A DNA stretch of 64,000 nucleotides from Dialister pneumosintes (lineage in GTDB: Bacteria > Bacillota > Negativicutes > Veillonellales > Dialisteraceae): contig NZ_CP017037.1 in the NCBI RefSeq assembly GCF_001717505.1, forward strand, positions 1,135,001 through 1,199,000, given 5' to 3'. Shown here piece by piece: positions 12,047 through 29,835 of this stretch. The translations under genes were made by a program, and so were the position numbers. The notes under the pieces were generated by a model that saw only the letters and a list, made by a program, of their open reading frames with translations, was not told where the DNA came from and did no database searches. Within the stretch, counting starts at the first letter, position 1; each line of letters begins with the position of its first letter.

Positions 12047-12075
12047 TTGACATTCGCAAATTAAGACAGTACAAT
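12047..12075 (+). promoter_or_regulatory. Strong promoter of the porin gene
   Basis: TTGACA (12047-12052), a 17-base spacer and TACAAT (12070-12075) form a near-consensus promoter about 130 bases upstream of the porin start codon. The remaining leader would be roughly 120 bases long. Confidence 0.75.
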
Positions 12076-12090: not shown

Positions 12091-12202
12091 TAGTAATGAC
12101 TCGCATTTTCGTTTATCCAAAAGGAAACAAGGATACTTGCGGATAAGAAACGGTCATATAAATTCGAATTTTATTTTCATATTATAAAAAGGAGACAAGA
12201 AC

Positions 12203-13569
12203 ATGAAAAAGATTCTTGCAATCGCTGCTGTAGCAGCTTTGACCGCAGGCGTATCCGCATACGCAGCAAATCCATTCTCTGATGTATCCACAAGCGATTG
12301 GGCATATCAGGCAGTAAGTGAATTATCCGAACAGGGAATCGTAGAAGGTATGGTTCATGAACATCATCATGAGGAGGATGCACATGAGGAACATGCAAGG
12401 GAGAAAGAAACATCACCCGTTATGAGTTGGCACAGATCATTGCTAGACTCATGGCAAATGAAGATCAATACAATGCAGAACAGAGAGCTATGATTGATCA
12501 GCTCGCAAGCGAATATGCTGATGAACTTAACAACCTCGGTGTACGTGTAGGCAACCTCGAATCCAAGGTAGGCAACATTTCCTGGTCCGGCGATGCTCGT
12601 ATGCATTTCCAGCATGTAAACTGGGGGGATCAATACACAGGTCGTATTCGCTTAAATGCGAAGGCACAGGTAAATGATCATATTTTTGTAGAAGGTCGTT
12701 TGGGTCACGAAACGGACTTTAAAGATTCCAGCAAAGACTCCGGACTGGTACCAAACAGCACCGGTGTATCTATGGATAGACTCCATGCAGTATGGATGCC
12801 AACCGATAAATTCTCTGTTGACCTCGGTCGTACCGGTGTAGAACTCGATCAGAGCGGTGTATTCTAGGATGAAGATGCTATATTTGACGGTGTAGTGGTA
12901 TCTGCAGGTTCTGAAAAAGCAGGTGTTTCTGCAGGTTATGGTCGTTTCAAATCTGTTGAGTTCTTAGATGCACAATACAAAGACCAGGCAAGCCGTGAAG
13001 CATGGTTCGGTAGAGGTTATGCAACCGTAGGTGCTTTAGATGTATCCGCTTTCTACGTAGGATATTTACAGAATCACAATACCGATACAGCAAAGAACTT
13101 CTTGGAGCAACCTGAAGTAAAAGCAGATGAGAAAGCAGATGTATGAGGATTTGGTGCTTCCGTTGACTTAGGTCACAACTTAAAGTTAGATGGAGATTAT
13201 GTACAGACTTTGTACAAGATGTCTTATAATGGCAAAAAACTCCTCAATAATCCAACCATGTGGACTTTAGGCTTGACCTATGGTGAAGTAGATACTGACA
13301 TGCCGGGCTCTTATTCTTTCGGCATTCGCTATGTAGATGCAGACTATGTATCCAACATGCTTGGTGCTACAGGATTGGATCTCGAAGACCAGCTCCACTA
13401 TTCTTATGAAGAAGGAACAGGTGTATCCTTCTGGGCTGCTCGTGCTGCTGTAGCTGTTCAAAAAAATGTAGAACTGGCTGCTTACTACAACTTCGGTGCT
13501 AAATCCGATGTGAAGGGCAAAGCAAATCCCAAAAACTCTTGGGGAATGGAACTTAACTACACATTCTAA
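12203..13569 (+). pseudogene. SLH-domain outer-membrane porin, disrupted
   Basis: It encodes a signal peptide (MKKILAIAAVAALTAGVSAYA), the start of an S-layer-homology domain (NPFSDVSTSDWAYQ), a coiled linker and a beta-barrel ending in MELNYTF, as in the peptidoglycan-anchored OmpM-type porins of Negativicutes. The gene is broken three ways. After GIVEG the SLH repeat is replaced by foreign sequence, and the frame shifts near 12398 (it resumes with RNITRYELAQIIARL in another frame). There is then an in-frame TAG at 12865-12867 and an in-frame TGA at 13144-13146. The rest of the barrel reads normally in a single frame, so the damage looks recent. Promoter, ribosome site (AAGGAG) and terminator are intact. 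Confidence 0.88.
12337..12397 (+). repeat. 61-bp znuA-identical segment inside the porin gene
   Basis: These 61 bases are identical to the reverse complement of 16576-16636, the part of znuA coding for IVEGMVHEHHHEEDAHEEHA. In the porin they replace the stretch expected to encode YPDGTF-like SLH residues. The left junction lies in sequence natural to both genes (coding IVEG), pointing to microhomology-driven template switching; the right junction destroys the reading frame. Confidence 0.9.
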
Positions 13570-13578
13570 TCTCATCAT

Positions 13579-13606
13579 AAAAGGACTCCGATCGGAGTCC
13601 TTTTTA
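13579..13606 (+). terminator. Terminator of the porin gene
   Basis: The perfect stem AAAGGACTCCG / CGGAGTCCTTT is followed by a T run, ten bases after the stop codon. Confidence 0.85.
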
Positions 13607-13722: not shown

Positions 13723-14433
13723 TTAATCAGTAATGGTTCCTTTGCCTTCTTTAGGCATTTTAATAACTTTAACCGCTTCCAGATGATAGAACGGTGCCGT
13801 CAAATGTTCGTTCAAGTGTACAATTCCTTTTCTGATGATACCATATACCTGAATCCAAGTTTGTGCTGATTTATAACCGGTAAAATCTTCATCTGAACGG
13901 AATTCAAAATCTACATATCCGCCTGTACAGTAAGGGCAGGTCGGACCATTTCTTCCAACGAAAGTATGTCCGCCAATCTCCAAATAATACCCTTCAATAA
14001 GCACGGTCTTATTTTGATACAATGCGGAATTCATATACCAGTCATTAATTTGTGTCATATATAATTTATCACCGACAGTGATATCTACATGATTATAGTC
14101 AAAAGATTCTCTATCGGAGCTAAAATCATAGTTAAACTCAAAATATGGATAATGCACCTTTCCGGATGCATCGACAACCGGTTCTGTTACCCATTGCACT
14201 TTAGGAATAGACTCCTGTGCATTTTCTGTACGGGAAACTGTTTCAGGTTGTGTCCCCTCTTTATTAACAGCTTGCTCTTTTTTTGCCTTTTCTTCTTGTA
14301 CCGTTTGTCTGGTAATAATCGTATTTTCTGCTACAGGTTCTTCCTGCTCAGAATTTCCACAACCGGACAAACAAAAAGTACCGATTAATATACAGAGAGA
14401 GGAGAATACATATATCCAACTTTTTCGTTTCAT
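13723..14433 (-). CDS. Lipoprotein of unknown function in the zinc-uptake operon
   Basis: About 236 residues. The start at 14433 overlaps the permease stop codon in an ATGA arrangement and has GGGATGG upstream; the longer frame inside the permease gene is not used. A lipoprotein signal ends in LSGC near residue 24, then comes a charged low-complexity linker and a beta-rich C-terminal domain with a Cys-x-x-Cys motif (PTCPYC) and the pattern WIQVYG. That arrangement recalls the DUF1980/TIGR03943 proteins found with Zur-regulated genes, but this is only a resemblance. Its place in the znu operon suggests a periplasmic or outer-membrane role in zinc handling. Confidence 0.75.
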   Translation of the reverse strand: MKRKSWIYVFSSLCILIGTFCLSGCGNSEQEEPVAENTIITRQTVQEEKAKKEQAVNKEGTQPETVSRTENAQESIPKVQWVTEPVVDASGKVHYPYFEFNYDFSSDRESFDYNHVDITVGDKLYMTQINDWYMNSALYQNKTVLIEGYYLEIGGHTFVGRNGPTCPYCTGGYVDFEFRSDEDFTGYKSAQTWIQVYGIIRKGIVHLNEHLTAPFYHLEAVKVIKMPKEGKGTITD

Positions 14434-15257
14434 GAAATCCATCCCTTTTCTTTTGTTTTTCTCATGGCAATTGCCAAAAAGAACATCACAATATCCGTCA
14501 CGACAATACATGCTCCGGTCGGTACTGAATAGACATATGAAATCGTAATACCTGTGATAAAACAGAATACAGATAAAAAAGCAGATACGATAATGGTTGT
14601 TTTAAATCGATGACAAAGTTGCATCGCTGTAAGTGAGGGAAACACAATTAAACTGGAAATCAGTAGCGCTCCCATCATACGCATACCAAGCACAATGGTA
14701 ATCGATGTCAAAAATGCAATCACTAAATTATACCGACGTGAAGGAACTCCGGTTGCTGTCGCAAAAGATTCATCAAAGGTTACTGCAAAAATACGGTTAT
14801 AAAACCATACAAAGAGTACCATAACAAATAAACTAAGTCCTACTGATAAGTATACATCATCAGAAGTCATCGCAAGAATACTTCCGAACATATAATTACA
14901 TACATCTGTATTCATACCGGTAGTAAGTGAAATTGTCATTACCCCGATAGCCAGTGAGCCACTGCATAAAAGAGCCGTTGCCGAATCCCCTTTAACACGA
15001 GAACTATCTTTTATTTGAAGCAAAAGAAAAGCTGCTACGATACAAGCAGGAATAGCAATCGTAAGAGGTTTTTGATGAAAAGCATAGGCAATAGCCAAAG
15101 CGGCAAATCCTACATGAGAAAGACCGTCACCAATCATGGAATATCGTTTCAGTACCAGACTAGTACCTAAAAGAGAAGCGCATAAAGAAACCAGTATCCC
15201 TACAATAAATGCTCGTACCATAAACGGATAGCTTATCATTTCTATAAAAAGACTCAT
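14430..15257 (-). CDS. znuB: Zinc/manganese ABC transporter permease (ZnuB type)
   Basis: A 275-residue membrane protein of the ABC-3 family, homodimeric inner-membrane channel of a metal importer. About eight hydrophobic segments and the family signature GDGLSHVGFAALAIAY (near residue 42) are visible. It overlaps znuC by four bases (ATGA) and the downstream lipoprotein gene by four bases, so the four genes form one operon. The binding protein and operator point to zinc, but manganese cannot be excluded. Confidence 0.93.
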   Translation of the reverse strand: MSLFIEMISYPFMVRAFIVGILVSLCASLLGTSLVLKRYSMIGDGLSHVGFAALAIAYAFHQKPLTIAIPACIVAAFLLLQIKDSSRVKGDSATALLCSGSLAIGVMTISLTTGMNTDVCNYMFGSILAMTSDDVYLSVGLSLFVMVLFVWFYNRIFAVTFDESFATATGVPSRRYNLVIAFLTSITIVLGMRMMGALLISSLIVFPSLTAMQLCHRFKTTIIVSAFLSVFCFITGITISYVYSVPTGACIVVTDIVMFFLAIAMRKTKEKGWIS

Positions 15258-15964
15258 AAGATAAAACCTCTTTCCGTTAACGGTACTCGATTCTCCTGAA
15301 TATAATCCGCTTTTGTACCTACAAAAGAAGCTCTTCCTTTATCTAAATATAAAATATGAGAAGCTTCTTTAAGAACACCACGAATATCATGAGAGACCAT
15401 GATTACAGTCATATGATACGTTTCTATACAACGTCGTAAAATCAGATACATTTCTTTAGTCATTTCCGGATCTAAACCGGTAACCGGTTCATCAAGAATC
15501 AGTAATCTACCAGCAGAACACAGCGCACGAGCTAAAAGAACTCGTTGCTGTTGTCCTCCGGATAAGTCACGATAACATCGATTTTTTAAATCAGAAATCC
15601 CTAAAAACTCCAATTTTTCCTGTGCATCTTCTTTATCTTTTTTTCTATAGAAAGGATAATAACCACAACGATTCAACCGTCCTGACAAAACAATTTCCCA
15701 CACACTGACAGGAAAATCCCTTTGTACCGAAGTCTGCTGCGATAAATAGCCAATTTCATCGGCTTGTAAGCCTTCTCCCAGAATGACTTTTCCACCGGAA
15801 AGCTTTTCTAATTTTAATAGTCCTTTAATTAAAGTACTTTTTCCTGCACCATTTTCTCCGATAATTCCCCAATATTCTCCGGAATTCACAGAAAAACTGA
15901 CATCAGAAAGTACCTTCTTACCTGCATAAGCGATAGAAAGACAATCACAAGAGAAAAGACTCAT
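15254..15964 (-). CDS. znuC: Zinc/manganese ABC transporter ATPase (ZnuC type)
   Basis: A 236-residue cytosolic ABC ATPase. Walker A GENGAGKST (near 36-44), Q-loop in YLSQQT, signature LSGGQQQR, Walker B LLILDEPVTGLD and the switch His in MVSHD are all present, so it should be active. The start overlaps the znuA stop by one base and the end overlaps znuB by four bases. Confidence 0.95.
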   Translation of the reverse strand: MSLFSCDCLSIAYAGKKVLSDVSFSVNSGEYWGIIGENGAGKSTLIKGLLKLEKLSGGKVILGEGLQADEIGYLSQQTSVQRDFPVSVWEIVLSGRLNRCGYYPFYRKKDKEDAQEKLEFLGISDLKNRCYRDLSGGQQQRVLLARALCSAGRLLILDEPVTGLDPEMTKEMYLILRRCIETYHMTVIMVSHDIRGVLKEASHILYLDKGRASFVGTKADYIQENRVPLTERGFIL

Positions 15965-17010
15965 TAATTCAAGGCCTCCTTGAGCGCTTTGACATTTTCT
16001 TTCATAAGATCAATATAAGTAACGCCTTTTTCAAACTGCTCCGCTGTTACATTATGAATCGCATTAAGAAGCATATTCTTAGCTCCGGTTGCTTCTGCAA
16101 TGGACTTGCTCATCTGCTCATTGGACATTTCAATATGGAATACCACCGGAATATTATCTGCTTTTACCTTATCAATCAAGAAAGCAACAGTAGCCGGATT
16201 GGAACCGGTATCCTTAGAGCATCCTGGGAATGCAGCATAGTAGCTTAAACCATATTCCTTAGCAAAATACAAGAACGGGAATCTGTCACCGACAATAATT
16301 TCCTTTCTCTTCGCATGATCAATTACATCGCGGAATTCCTTATCCAAATCTTGGAGTTCTTTTACATAGGTTTCTGTATTTTTCTTGAAATATTCTGCAT
16401 CCGCTGCGTCTAAAGAAATAATATTATCACTCATAGCCTTTACAATGGCAATAGCATTGACCGGAGAAGTCCAAACATGTTCATCCATTTCATGTGCATG
16501 TTCGTGTTCATGGTGAGCATGTTCTTCATGTTCATGCTCATGATGTGCATCTTCTTCATGCGCATGTTCATGGTGTGCATGTTCCTCATGTGCATCCTCC
16601 TCATGATGATGTTCATGAACCATACCTTCTACGATTTCTTCTTCACGAAGAGATACCGCATCCATCATTTTGAAAGCTTTATGCTTATTCGTATCAATCG
16701 ATTCCAATACATGTTCTACCCATTCATCGGCATCTCCACCGGTGTATACAAATAAATCACTGCTCTGAATCGCTTTGATATCCTCCGGAGTCGGTTCATA
16801 ACTATGAGCCTCTGCACCCGGCTTAAGAAGCATGGTTACTTCCGCCTTATCACCGGCAATCTGCCTTGCAAAATCATAACCGGAAAAATTTGTACAAACG
16901 ATTTTCAGTGCTTTATCACCGGAAGTCGTGGATGTACTCTGATTACCACAACCTGCCAAACCAACGGCACCTACACAACAAGCCGTAACTAATGCGATAA
17001 GTTTTTTCAT
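15964..17010 (-). CDS. znuA: Zinc-binding periplasmic lipoprotein (ZnuA type) with His-rich loop
   Basis: A 348-residue cluster A-I metal-binding protein. A lipoprotein signal (AVGLAGC) anchors it. The fold shows the first ligand His in AEAHSYEPTPEDI, a long His/Glu-rich loop at roughly residues 130-172 built from repeats such as HEEHAHHEHEHE, then HVWTSP, and later the VVFHIEMS and conserved TYIDLM segments. The His-rich loop is characteristic of zinc-specific members. GGAGG precedes the start. A 61-bp part of its His-rich coding region is duplicated inside the porin gene 4.2 kb away. Expression is probably controlled by the operator at 17099-17125. Confidence 0.95.
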   Translation of the reverse strand: MKKLIALVTACCVGAVGLAGCGNQSTSTTSGDKALKIVCTNFSGYDFARQIAGDKAEVTMLLKPGAEAHSYEPTPEDIKAIQSSDLFVYTGGDADEWVEHVLESIDTNKHKAFKMMDAVSLREEEIVEGMVHEHHHEEDAHEEHAHHEHAHEEDAHHEHEHEEHAHHEHEHAHEMDEHVWTSPVNAIAIVKAMSDNIISLDAADAEYFKKNTETYVKELQDLDKEFRDVIDHAKRKEIIVGDRFPFLYFAKEYGLSYYAAFPGCSKDTGSNPATVAFLIDKVKADNIPVVFHIEMSNEQMSKSIAEATGAKNMLLNAIHNVTAEQFEKGVTYIDLMKENVKALKEALN

Positions 17011-17125: not shown

Positions 17126-17314
17126 TATTATACCACATTCTTATATTGATAGCAGATAAACACTATATGAACACTTCTAGCATCTACTTTTATTAAAATT
17201 AATTATTAAGCGGTATATTGTTATATTATTTATCTTTTACTTATTTATAATTTTGTTATATATTATATAGGTAAACTAATGATTACTCATTTATTTTTTT
17301 CAGGAGGAATTTTT

Positions 17315-18868
17315 ATGAGCAAACAAAATTTTAAAAAATCGGTATTCTTAACGATGGCAATCAGTGCATTTTTAATGGCTCCAATCAGCGGAGTTCATGC
17401 TACACCTACACTCGATGAACTAAATAATCGTCTAACTACTTTAGAGAATGATGTTAATCAGACACTTCCTACCATCGCAGGAAAAGCAAAACAAGTAGAC
17501 TTAAATAACGAAATACAAGCTAGAACTGACAAAGATAATGAACTTGAAGGAAAAATAACAAATCTAACCAATAATAAATCTGATAAAACTTATGTAGATA
17601 CAGAATTGGGTAAAAAAGTAAATGCTACTGATTTTAATCAGTTCAAGAATGATACGAATGCAACATTAACAGGACTTGCTCATGATAAAGCTGCTAAAGC
17701 ATATGTAGATGATGAATTGGCTAAAAAAGCAAATACGGATGATGTTTACAAGAAAGCTGAAACTTATAACCAGACAGAAATCAACGACAAATTAAACAAA
17801 AAGGCTAACTCTGCTGATGTGTACAAAAAATCTGAAACTTATAGCAAGGATGAAGTAAACGCAGAATTAGCTAAGAAAGCAGATAAGACTACCGTAAACG
17901 CTTTAAAAAGCGATCTTGAAAATACAAAAGATAAATTAAGTGATGCCAGAACGGATATTAGATATTTAAAACAAAATAAAGCAGACAAAGTAGAAACAGA
18001 AAATGCGTTAAATACATTGACAACTCGAATCGCTACAGAAGAAACCAATCGTAAAGCGAATGAACGCATCTTACATAAAAATATCGATGAAGTAAACGCA
18101 GAATTAGCTAAGAAAGCAGATAAGACTACCGTAAACGCTTTAAAAAGCGATCTTGAAAATACAAAAGATAAATTAAGTGATGCCAGAACGGATATTAGAT
18201 ATTTAAAACAAAATAAAGCAGACAAAGTAGAAACAGAAAATGCGTTGAATACATTGACAACTCGAATCGCTACAGAAGAAACCAATCGTAAAGCGAATGA
18301 ACGCATCTTACATAAAAATATCCAAGATGAAATTAGTGCTCGTGAATCAGCAGATCATGCATTGTCTGCACGAATCACTGCTGAAGAAACTGTACGTGCA
18401 GAAGCAGATGCTCGTCATGATAGAGAACTCCAAGCAGCTACCCAAAACGTTTCTGATTTACAAAAAGAAGTAAAGAATACTACGTCTATGACGGCTGCTT
18501 TAGCTGCTTTGAAGCCTCTTACATACAACCCAGAAGCTCCTATTCAGATTATGGCAGGTTACGGTAACTATCGTGGACAATCTGCTGCTGCGTTAGGTCT
18601 TGCATACTACAAGAATGAAAATAACTTACTCCACATGGGTGTATCCTATGCTGGCAATAAAGATGTAGCTGCTAACGCAGGTATCACATGGAGAGTAGGT
18701 AAAGGCGTATCCACTACCATGACTTCCGATTCAGAAGTTACCGCTGAATTAAAAGCATTACAGAAAGAAGTTCGTGCATGCAAAGATAGTGAAAAAGCAC
18801 AAAAAGAAATTATCGAATCCATGCAAAAACAAATTGCAGAATTGACCCGTCAATTAGCTGCTAAATAA
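17315..18868 (+). CDS. Trimeric autotransporter, stalk only (YadA anchor)
   Basis: About 517 residues from the ATG at 17315 (AGGAGG six bases upstream; an earlier in-frame ATG lacks a site). A signal peptide ends near VHA, followed by about 370 residues of coiled-coil stalk with KKADK-type repeats and no YadA head domain, then the membrane anchor beginning at AALAALKPLTYNP and containing IQIMAGYGNYRG. About 50 residues of further coiled coil (ALQKEVRAC to the end) follow the anchor, which is unusual because classical members end at the last barrel strand. The stalk contains a 237-bp tandem duplication. Likely an outer-membrane surface fibre; adhesion is inferred only. Confidence 0.88.
   Translation: MSKQNFKKSVFLTMAISAFLMAPISGVHATPTLDELNNRLTTLENDVNQTLPTIAGKAKQVDLNNEIQARTDKDNELEGKITNLTNNKSDKTYVDTELGKKVNATDFNQFKNDTNATLTGLAHDKAAKAYVDDELAKKANTDDVYKKAETYNQTEINDKLNKKANSADVYKKSETYSKDEVNAELAKKADKTTVNALKSDLENTKDKLSDARTDIRYLKQNKADKVETENALNTLTTRIATEETNRKANERILHKNIDEVNAELAKKADKTTVNALKSDLENTKDKLSDARTDIRYLKQNKADKVETENALNTLTTRIATEETNRKANERILHKNIQDEISARESADHALSARITAEETVRAEADARHDRELQAATQNVSDLQKEVKNTTSMTAALAALKPLTYNPEAPIQIMAGYGNYRGQSAAALGLAYYKNENNLLHMGVSYAGNKDVAANAGITWRVGKGVSTTMTSDSEVTAELKALQKEVRACKDSEKAQKEIIESMQKQIAELTRQLAAK
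17849..18322 (+). repeat. 237-bp in-frame tandem duplication in the stalk
   Basis: Two copies (17849-18085 and 18086-18322), each 79 codons, are nearly identical; one difference seen is TTAAAT versus TTGAAT. The near-identity implies a recent duplication or ongoing homogenisation, and copy number may vary between strains. Confidence 0.92.
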
Positions 18869-18929: not shown

Positions 18930-19151
18930 TTATGCTGTTATAAAACTTTATACTTTACATAACTTCGATACTTATTAACCCTTATATACTTAAATTATAT
19001 AGATAATATCATATGTTTAGCTATTCCTAAATTTGTGTTAATAAATGCAAAAAAATCATAAATACACCTCTTTATATATCTAAAAAATATGATATACTTA
19101 TATCCGGTTTTATTCATTTTTTGTGTTTTGTTTAATTTTTTGGAGGAATTT

Positions 19152-29630: not shown

Positions 29631-29660
29631 TATAAAACATACTCTAAAAAAAGTATGTTT

Positions 29661-29835
29661 ATTCTCTGTCCTTTTGCCTGAGAGATTTGGATTAATATTT
29701 AACCCTTACACCTTCGGCGCTCATTAAGAGACTCTCCAGAGTGTGTCCATATGCGCTACTCATTCCTTTCGGAACGCCTGAGAGTGTTACTCCTTCGGCA
29801 GGCACCAGCCTTCTCACACATACTTCATCCACCAA
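29661..29835 (-). promoter_or_regulatory. Tandem glycine riboswitch 3 (controls AGCS copy 2)
   Basis: Both aptamers are visible on the minus strand: GCCGAAGGAGTAACACTCTC in the first, and CTCTGGAGAG, GCGCCGAAGG, CTCAGGCAAAAGGACAG in the second. It is more divergent than riboswitches 1 and 2. Confidence 0.93.

Follow-up and report, generated by a model that had tools for sequence, protein, structure and literature searches.

The DNA analyzed here, a stretch of 64,000 nucleotides from Dialister pneumosintes that we refer to as the window, harbors on its forward strand a broken gene for a surface layer homology (SLH) porin and, on the opposite strand, the genes znuA, znuC, and znuB (Table 1). 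A segment of the porin gene is a copy of part of znuA. The bases 12337-12397 (+) and 16636-16576 (-) are identical at 61 of 61 positions, which is far beyond what chance can produce, and a chance match was thus ruled out. The statement in an earlier note on this DNA that the segment equals the histidine-rich loop of znuA, located some 4.2 kb away on the opposite strand, is therefore correct, and the znuA patch in the porin gene is confirmed as a real observation. The extended arms (12329-12397 and 16576-16644) comprise 69 nt, are 96% complementary with a spacing of 4178 nt, and constitute the sole inverted pair detected in the window at a length of 30 nt or more (seed 18). The 61-mer occurs once per strand in the window, and genome-wide searches (one contig of 1,274,073 bases, 99.21% complete) matched the segment at the porin and znuA sites only.

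Table 1. Features of the znuA patch, the porin gene, and the znu genes; positions are counted from the first base of the window.
Feature	Position	Strand	Evidence
Sigma-70-like promoter (TTGACA, 17 nt, TACAAT) of the porin gene	12047..12075	+	11/12 consensus match
Open reading frame (ORF) left by the graft, 96 aa: signal-peptide-like start, half SLH domain, ZnuA His-rich loop, out-of-frame tail	12203..12493	+	Translation
Left anchor	12337..12349	+	13 bases identical in znuA and four intact porin paralogues
Donor-only segment	12350..12387	+	38 nt of znuA where four intact paralogues have 9 nt
Right anchor	12388..12397	+	10 bases, 9/10 common to znuA and paralogues
Rest of the putative OmpM-type porin (SLH end, coiled-coil, presumed barrel), out of frame with the start	12398..13569	+	Two in-frame stops
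Intrinsic-terminator-like hairpin after the porin	13579..13604	+	5 such sites in the region vs. 1.2 in shuffles
znuC-znuB, ABC ATPase and ABC-3 permease, adjoining znuA	14430..15964	-	PF00005 and PF00950
znuA, intact, 348 aa	15964..17010	-	PF01297, E 1.1e-73
Donor segment in znuA, His-rich loop IVEGMVHEHHHEEDAHEEHA	16576..16636	-	61/61 identity to the graft

The znuA product resembles the zinc-binding component ZnuA with its His-rich loop in that PF01297 is matched over the full profile and an ABC ATPase and an ABC-3 permease are encoded next to it. We found no difference from that system, and znuA appears here merely as the donor. In another genome of the family (G003), SLH porins on one strand are likewise accompanied, at a distance of a few kb, by a convergently oriented block of znuB, znuC, and znuA, and the nearness of the porin and znu genes therefore probably predates the graft. 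The porin array near znu in that genome begins with a copy (L110:886-2228) that also looks broken, its SLH and barrel parts being in different frames. Antisense regulation of znuA was considered and rejected, since the grafted sequence has one and the same orientation in the porin and znuA messages.

Several other features of the window were recorded. A gene for a YadA-type adhesin (17279-18868) contains two perfect tandem copies of 237 bp (17849-18322), which suggests a recent in-frame duplication in the stalk, and is followed by a second repeat-rich ORF of similar appearance (19089-20333). Three glycine riboswitch aptamers are located on the reverse strand between 25808 and 29749 (25808-25904, 26219-26310, and 29656-29749), the first two being 314 nt apart, and sequence near them is repeated at a spacing of 3841. 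A 300-nt direct repeat is present in three copies between 53895 and 56418 (one reference copy, to which the other two have 96% and 77% identity) at spacings of 1033 and 1191 nt. Between 40000 and 56000 the GC skew, calculated in blocks of 8 kb, passes from negative to clearly positive, which could mark a replication or strand-bias boundary.

The source genome contains at least six SLH porin copies including that of the window, the five others forming one array elsewhere in which four intact paralogues (C1:60.8-66 kb) are adjoined by a fifth, more distant copy; a further SLH protein is encoded near C1:1113 kb. The intact paralogue matched the SLH profile PF00395 over 44/44 positions (E 1.7e-13). 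No Pfam barrel family was found for the two downstream pieces of the window porin that were scanned nor for the intact paralogue, and the barrel is presumed from the likeness to OmpM in length and position. With this assignment, the gene would combine the SLH domain and the porin barrel that characterize OmpM. In Veillonella parvula, where there are four paralogues, OmpM tethers the outer membrane and forms the general porin (PMC10628300). The likeness to the OmpM proteins of Negativicutes consists of an SLH domain with a TRYE motif, a linker, a C-terminal barrel, and several paralogues per genome, whereas the window copy differs in having breaks inside its SLH domain and at two other sites.

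The first of these breaks is the graft itself. The ORF at 12203-12493 leaves the porin frame at the patch, in agreement with the frame shift claimed earlier; the graft is read in ZnuA's own frame, and the following 31 residues correspond to out-of-frame porin sequence. Only positions 1-27 of the 44 in PF00395 are matched by this ORF. Two further breaks, absent from the earlier note, are in-frame stops in the original porin frame, namely, TAG at 12865-12867 and TGA at 13144-13146. Because it carries these two stops besides the frame-shifting graft, the window porin is, judged from its sequence, a pseudogene. When the second part of the porin was used as query, with X at the stops, ORF matches were obtained in 12/12 family genomes, the best being those in G005 (48% identity) and G006 (50%), and among the matches outside the source genome one (G002) also had an internal stop. 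When an orthologue of the window porin after aroB was sought in the other genome of the genus (G001), the porin matches fell on contigs C12 and C33, and the portion of the aroB-bearing C35 stretch that could be read showed no SLH-porin motif.

A promoter-like site and a terminator-like hairpin remain around the broken gene, and a message may still be made from it. The promoter scan of the region returned 4 promoter-like sites vs. 5.3 in shuffles and was thus not above background; each of the 4 intact paralogues also has a TTGAC at a similar position, 162-168 nt ahead of its start. A block like AGGAAACNAGGAYACT, which at 12122-12137 lies upstream of the start codon, is common to the leaders of the broken porin and of the four intact copies (L009), and is a possible regulatory element.

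Comparison with the paralogues and with relatives showed the direction of the transfer. On either side of the graft the window porin is nearly the same as the four intact copies, its left flank differing from theirs at 2-4 of 132 bases and its right flank at 6-7 of 190. At the graft, the paralogues have 9 nt in place of 38, and they aligned to a graft query of 141 bases over 1-141 with gaps, at 72-74%. The claim that the middle of the SLH repeat had been replaced thus stands; the replacement by an unrelated segment was non-reciprocal, znuA being intact. We ran the same query against 12 family genomes and obtained 42 matches, 35 of them outside the source genome. These 35 were confined to positions 1-50 or 89-141 of the query, that is, to porin sequence up to and including the anchor, with the exception of two that fell in znuA (G003, covering 44-79, and G004, covering 45-76). 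In these two genomes the znuA DNA shows 89% (G003, 36 nt) and 91% (G004, 32 nt) identity to the graft, and the loop of G004 reads EEEVGEGMEHEHHHDD. None of the 35 outside matches joined donor-only bases (51-88) to porin bases. A sister genome whose porin carries the sequence ancestrally would have refuted the reading of the earlier note; none turned up among the 12 family genomes, in which the species is represented by one strain. Furthermore, 30/30 distinct stop-free SLH segments from the fetched loci read YP[D/N]G[T/M]F. These segments were recovered by a motif pattern that selects SLH-like segments and misses some; an SLH protein on L010 that the pattern missed reads GYPDGTF by eye. The histidine-rich sequence is thus long established in znuA and does not belong to the porin. 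As porins carry ordinary SLH sequence at this site and the znuA of relatives is already His-rich, znuA is identified as the donor and the OmpM-type SLH porin as the recipient. The opposite transfer, from the porin to znuA, was rejected, since the loop is present in the znuA of relatives and absent from the porins seen.

These comparisons also bear on whether the graft was retained for a use. The 96-aa product, made of the porin signal peptide, half an SLH domain, and the His-rich loop of ZnuA, might be an exported His-rich peptide that binds periplasmic zinc, or the loss of the porin might itself be advantageous, for instance as the loss of a surface receptor. The promoter-like site, the leader, a ribosome-binding site, and the terminator-like hairpin are all still in place, and the patch is read in the frame of ZnuA. 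The joint was nevertheless seen in none of the 12 family genomes searched, and the product continues for 31 residues in porin sequence read out of frame; we therefore consider retention for such a use very unlikely. Equally improbable, in our judgment, is the more specific proposal that a single microhomology-guided patch gave birth to a gene whose transcribed and exported chimera would have been kept for binding zinc in the periplasm.

Short matches between donor and recipient were observed at both ends of the patch. The left one coincides with the shared IVEG codons, at which the earlier note had placed a microhomology, and amounts to 13 identical bases; the right one (9/10) was found only in the present analysis. 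Base 12395 is of the donor type in the anchor comparison, and the return switch consequently falls between 12395 and 12398. Although 61 bases are identical, donor-type bases are thus spanned by 12350-12395 only (46 nt). Beyond the two anchors, the inverted-pair and anchor comparisons revealed nothing repeat-like at the junctions, and a mobile element or site-specific recombination was rejected on these grounds.

To see how frequent doubly anchored sites are, the first 400 nt of an intact paralogue were taken as the recipient, and the porin-masked window, on both of its strands, served as the possible donor. Since the criterion was fixed once the case was known, the scan is descriptive. Exactly one site, znuA at 16636, combined a match of 13 bases with a nearby second match of 10 bases (at most 1 mismatch), compared with an average of 0.2 sites in 20 Markov sequences. 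At lower stringency, with overlapping sites counted apart, there were 3 sites at 12 bases vs. 0.95 in the controls and 11 sites at 11 bases vs. 2.8. Such sites are thus not unique at 11 and 12 bases, at which single anchors were likewise above the controls.

Taken with the pseudogene state of the recipient, the two anchors very probably point to a one-time mutation and not to a functional element, the event being either microhomology-anchored double template switching or short-patch double illegitimate recombination. While the porin gene was being replicated or a gap in it repaired, the 13 identical bases would have allowed a 3' end or a short single-stranded piece to pair with znuA; about 46 bases of the His-rich loop would have been copied or brought in, and the strand would have been rejoined to the porin through the second short match of 9/10 bases. 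The outcome would be 38 bases in place of 9 and a shifted frame. Such a lesion is presumably tolerated, since the genome has at least six copies of the porin and this one is, with its two other in-frame stops, a pseudogene; redundancy would make the loss of one copy tolerable. That the copying took place during replication is what we infer. Short-patch double illegitimate recombination was reportedly described by Harms et al. in PNAS in 2016 for selected events in Acinetobacter baylyi, with genomic or foreign DNA as donors. The likeness to that process is that a short intragenomic stretch replaces an unrelated one, with microhomology at both ends and a net change in length; the difference is that here the donor is 4.2 kb off and the event was read from a genome and not selected.

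The earlier note had proposed template switching or gene conversion between unrelated genes. A template switch or a conversion-like process agrees with the two anchors and the intact donor, whereas classical RecA-dependent conversion does not fit the shared runs. RecA usually needs roughly 20-30 bases of homology, and the runs shared by znuA and the porin are 13 and 9/10 bases, the longest thus being 13. A conversion between the two genes would account for the non-reciprocal transfer that left znuA intact, but with so little flanking homology we regard it as highly improbable.

Published models of inter-strand template switching and quasipalindrome mutation (PMC8604942, PMC7954356, and PMC7202029) are local and involve short spacers within one fork. 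The likeness to quasipalindrome mutation as outlined there is that a nascent strand switches, copies in the inverted direction, returns, and leaves an inverted repeat; the difference lies in the distance between the arms, which is short and within one fork in those models and 4178 nt here. Among the titles listed in literature searches there was no bacterial patch of such a kind, which is no proof of absence. Given the inverted orientation and the distance of 4.2 kb, within which about 0.7% of the genome lies, we mildly favor an inter-strand switch near one fork over the capture of a free single-stranded fragment. Against the switch stands that 4.2 kb is long compared with the short spacers that accompanied inverted-repeat template switching in a study of yeast (PMC8604942). 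In a single product the two variants would look alike.

The genome encodes members of the RecJ, ComEC-like, DprA, and MutS families. Because ComEC-like and DprA families are present, DNA uptake is conceivable, a point for the captured-fragment variant. Loss of mismatch repair or of RecJ was rejected as a cause, since family assignments predict both MutS and RecJ. Similarly, templating by a retroelement (a diversity-generating retroelement or a retron) was rejected, as there was no match to the reverse transcriptase family PF00078 in the source genome (0/1); the control was positive in 3/14 genomes.

An artefact is another way to join a znuA fragment to the porin, through a chimera formed in whole-genome amplification, library PCR, or polishing. 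Products of this type likewise join at short matches, often in inverted orientation. The perfect identity of the segment fits such an origin, and a single assembly is the basis for both junctions. However, these lie within 61 bases of each other and would both have had to dominate the consensus of a genome that is a single contig. Amplification should, moreover, have left chimeras in several places, whereas the graft and znuA form the only inverted pair of at least this length that was found in 64 kb. The porin is, in addition, independently broken by its two stops. An artefact thus appears unlikely, if less so than either RecA-dependent conversion or retention for a use.

From the perfect identity, the earlier note had concluded that the event was very recent, or else an assembly chimera. 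The recent age was not borne out, since 0 changes in 46 informative bases give a 95% upper bound of 6.3% divergence, and identity is uninformative as to age.

The fifth copy of the porin array contains a perfect palindrome of 28 bp with a loop of 9 nt (L009:6495-6559, corresponding to C1:66794-66858). The first codons of the gene fall within its right arm, and no ATG, GTG, or TTG was found ahead of the signal-peptide-like part of this copy. The palindrome is distinct from the hairpin located downstream of the preceding porin. It is the longest of two perfect hairpins with arms of at least 14 on L009; for comparison, the window contains three with arms of at least 16, the longest being 20. Its sequence makes a second, short-range template-switch scar possible, and it may instead be a terminator or a regulatory hairpin.

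The patch in the porin gene thus has the appearance of a clear natural instance of an already described mutation class and not of a new system. The donor, the recipient, and the unaltered paralogues of a patch with microhomology at both ends are all present in one genome, and the event can therefore be read base by base. It is useful for understanding how clustered mutations arise outside the laboratory, in Negativicutes and away from the model organism, and it illustrates that a fusion may look strange without being a functional element. The possible palindromic scar of the fifth copy hints that inverted template switching may recur in this porin family.
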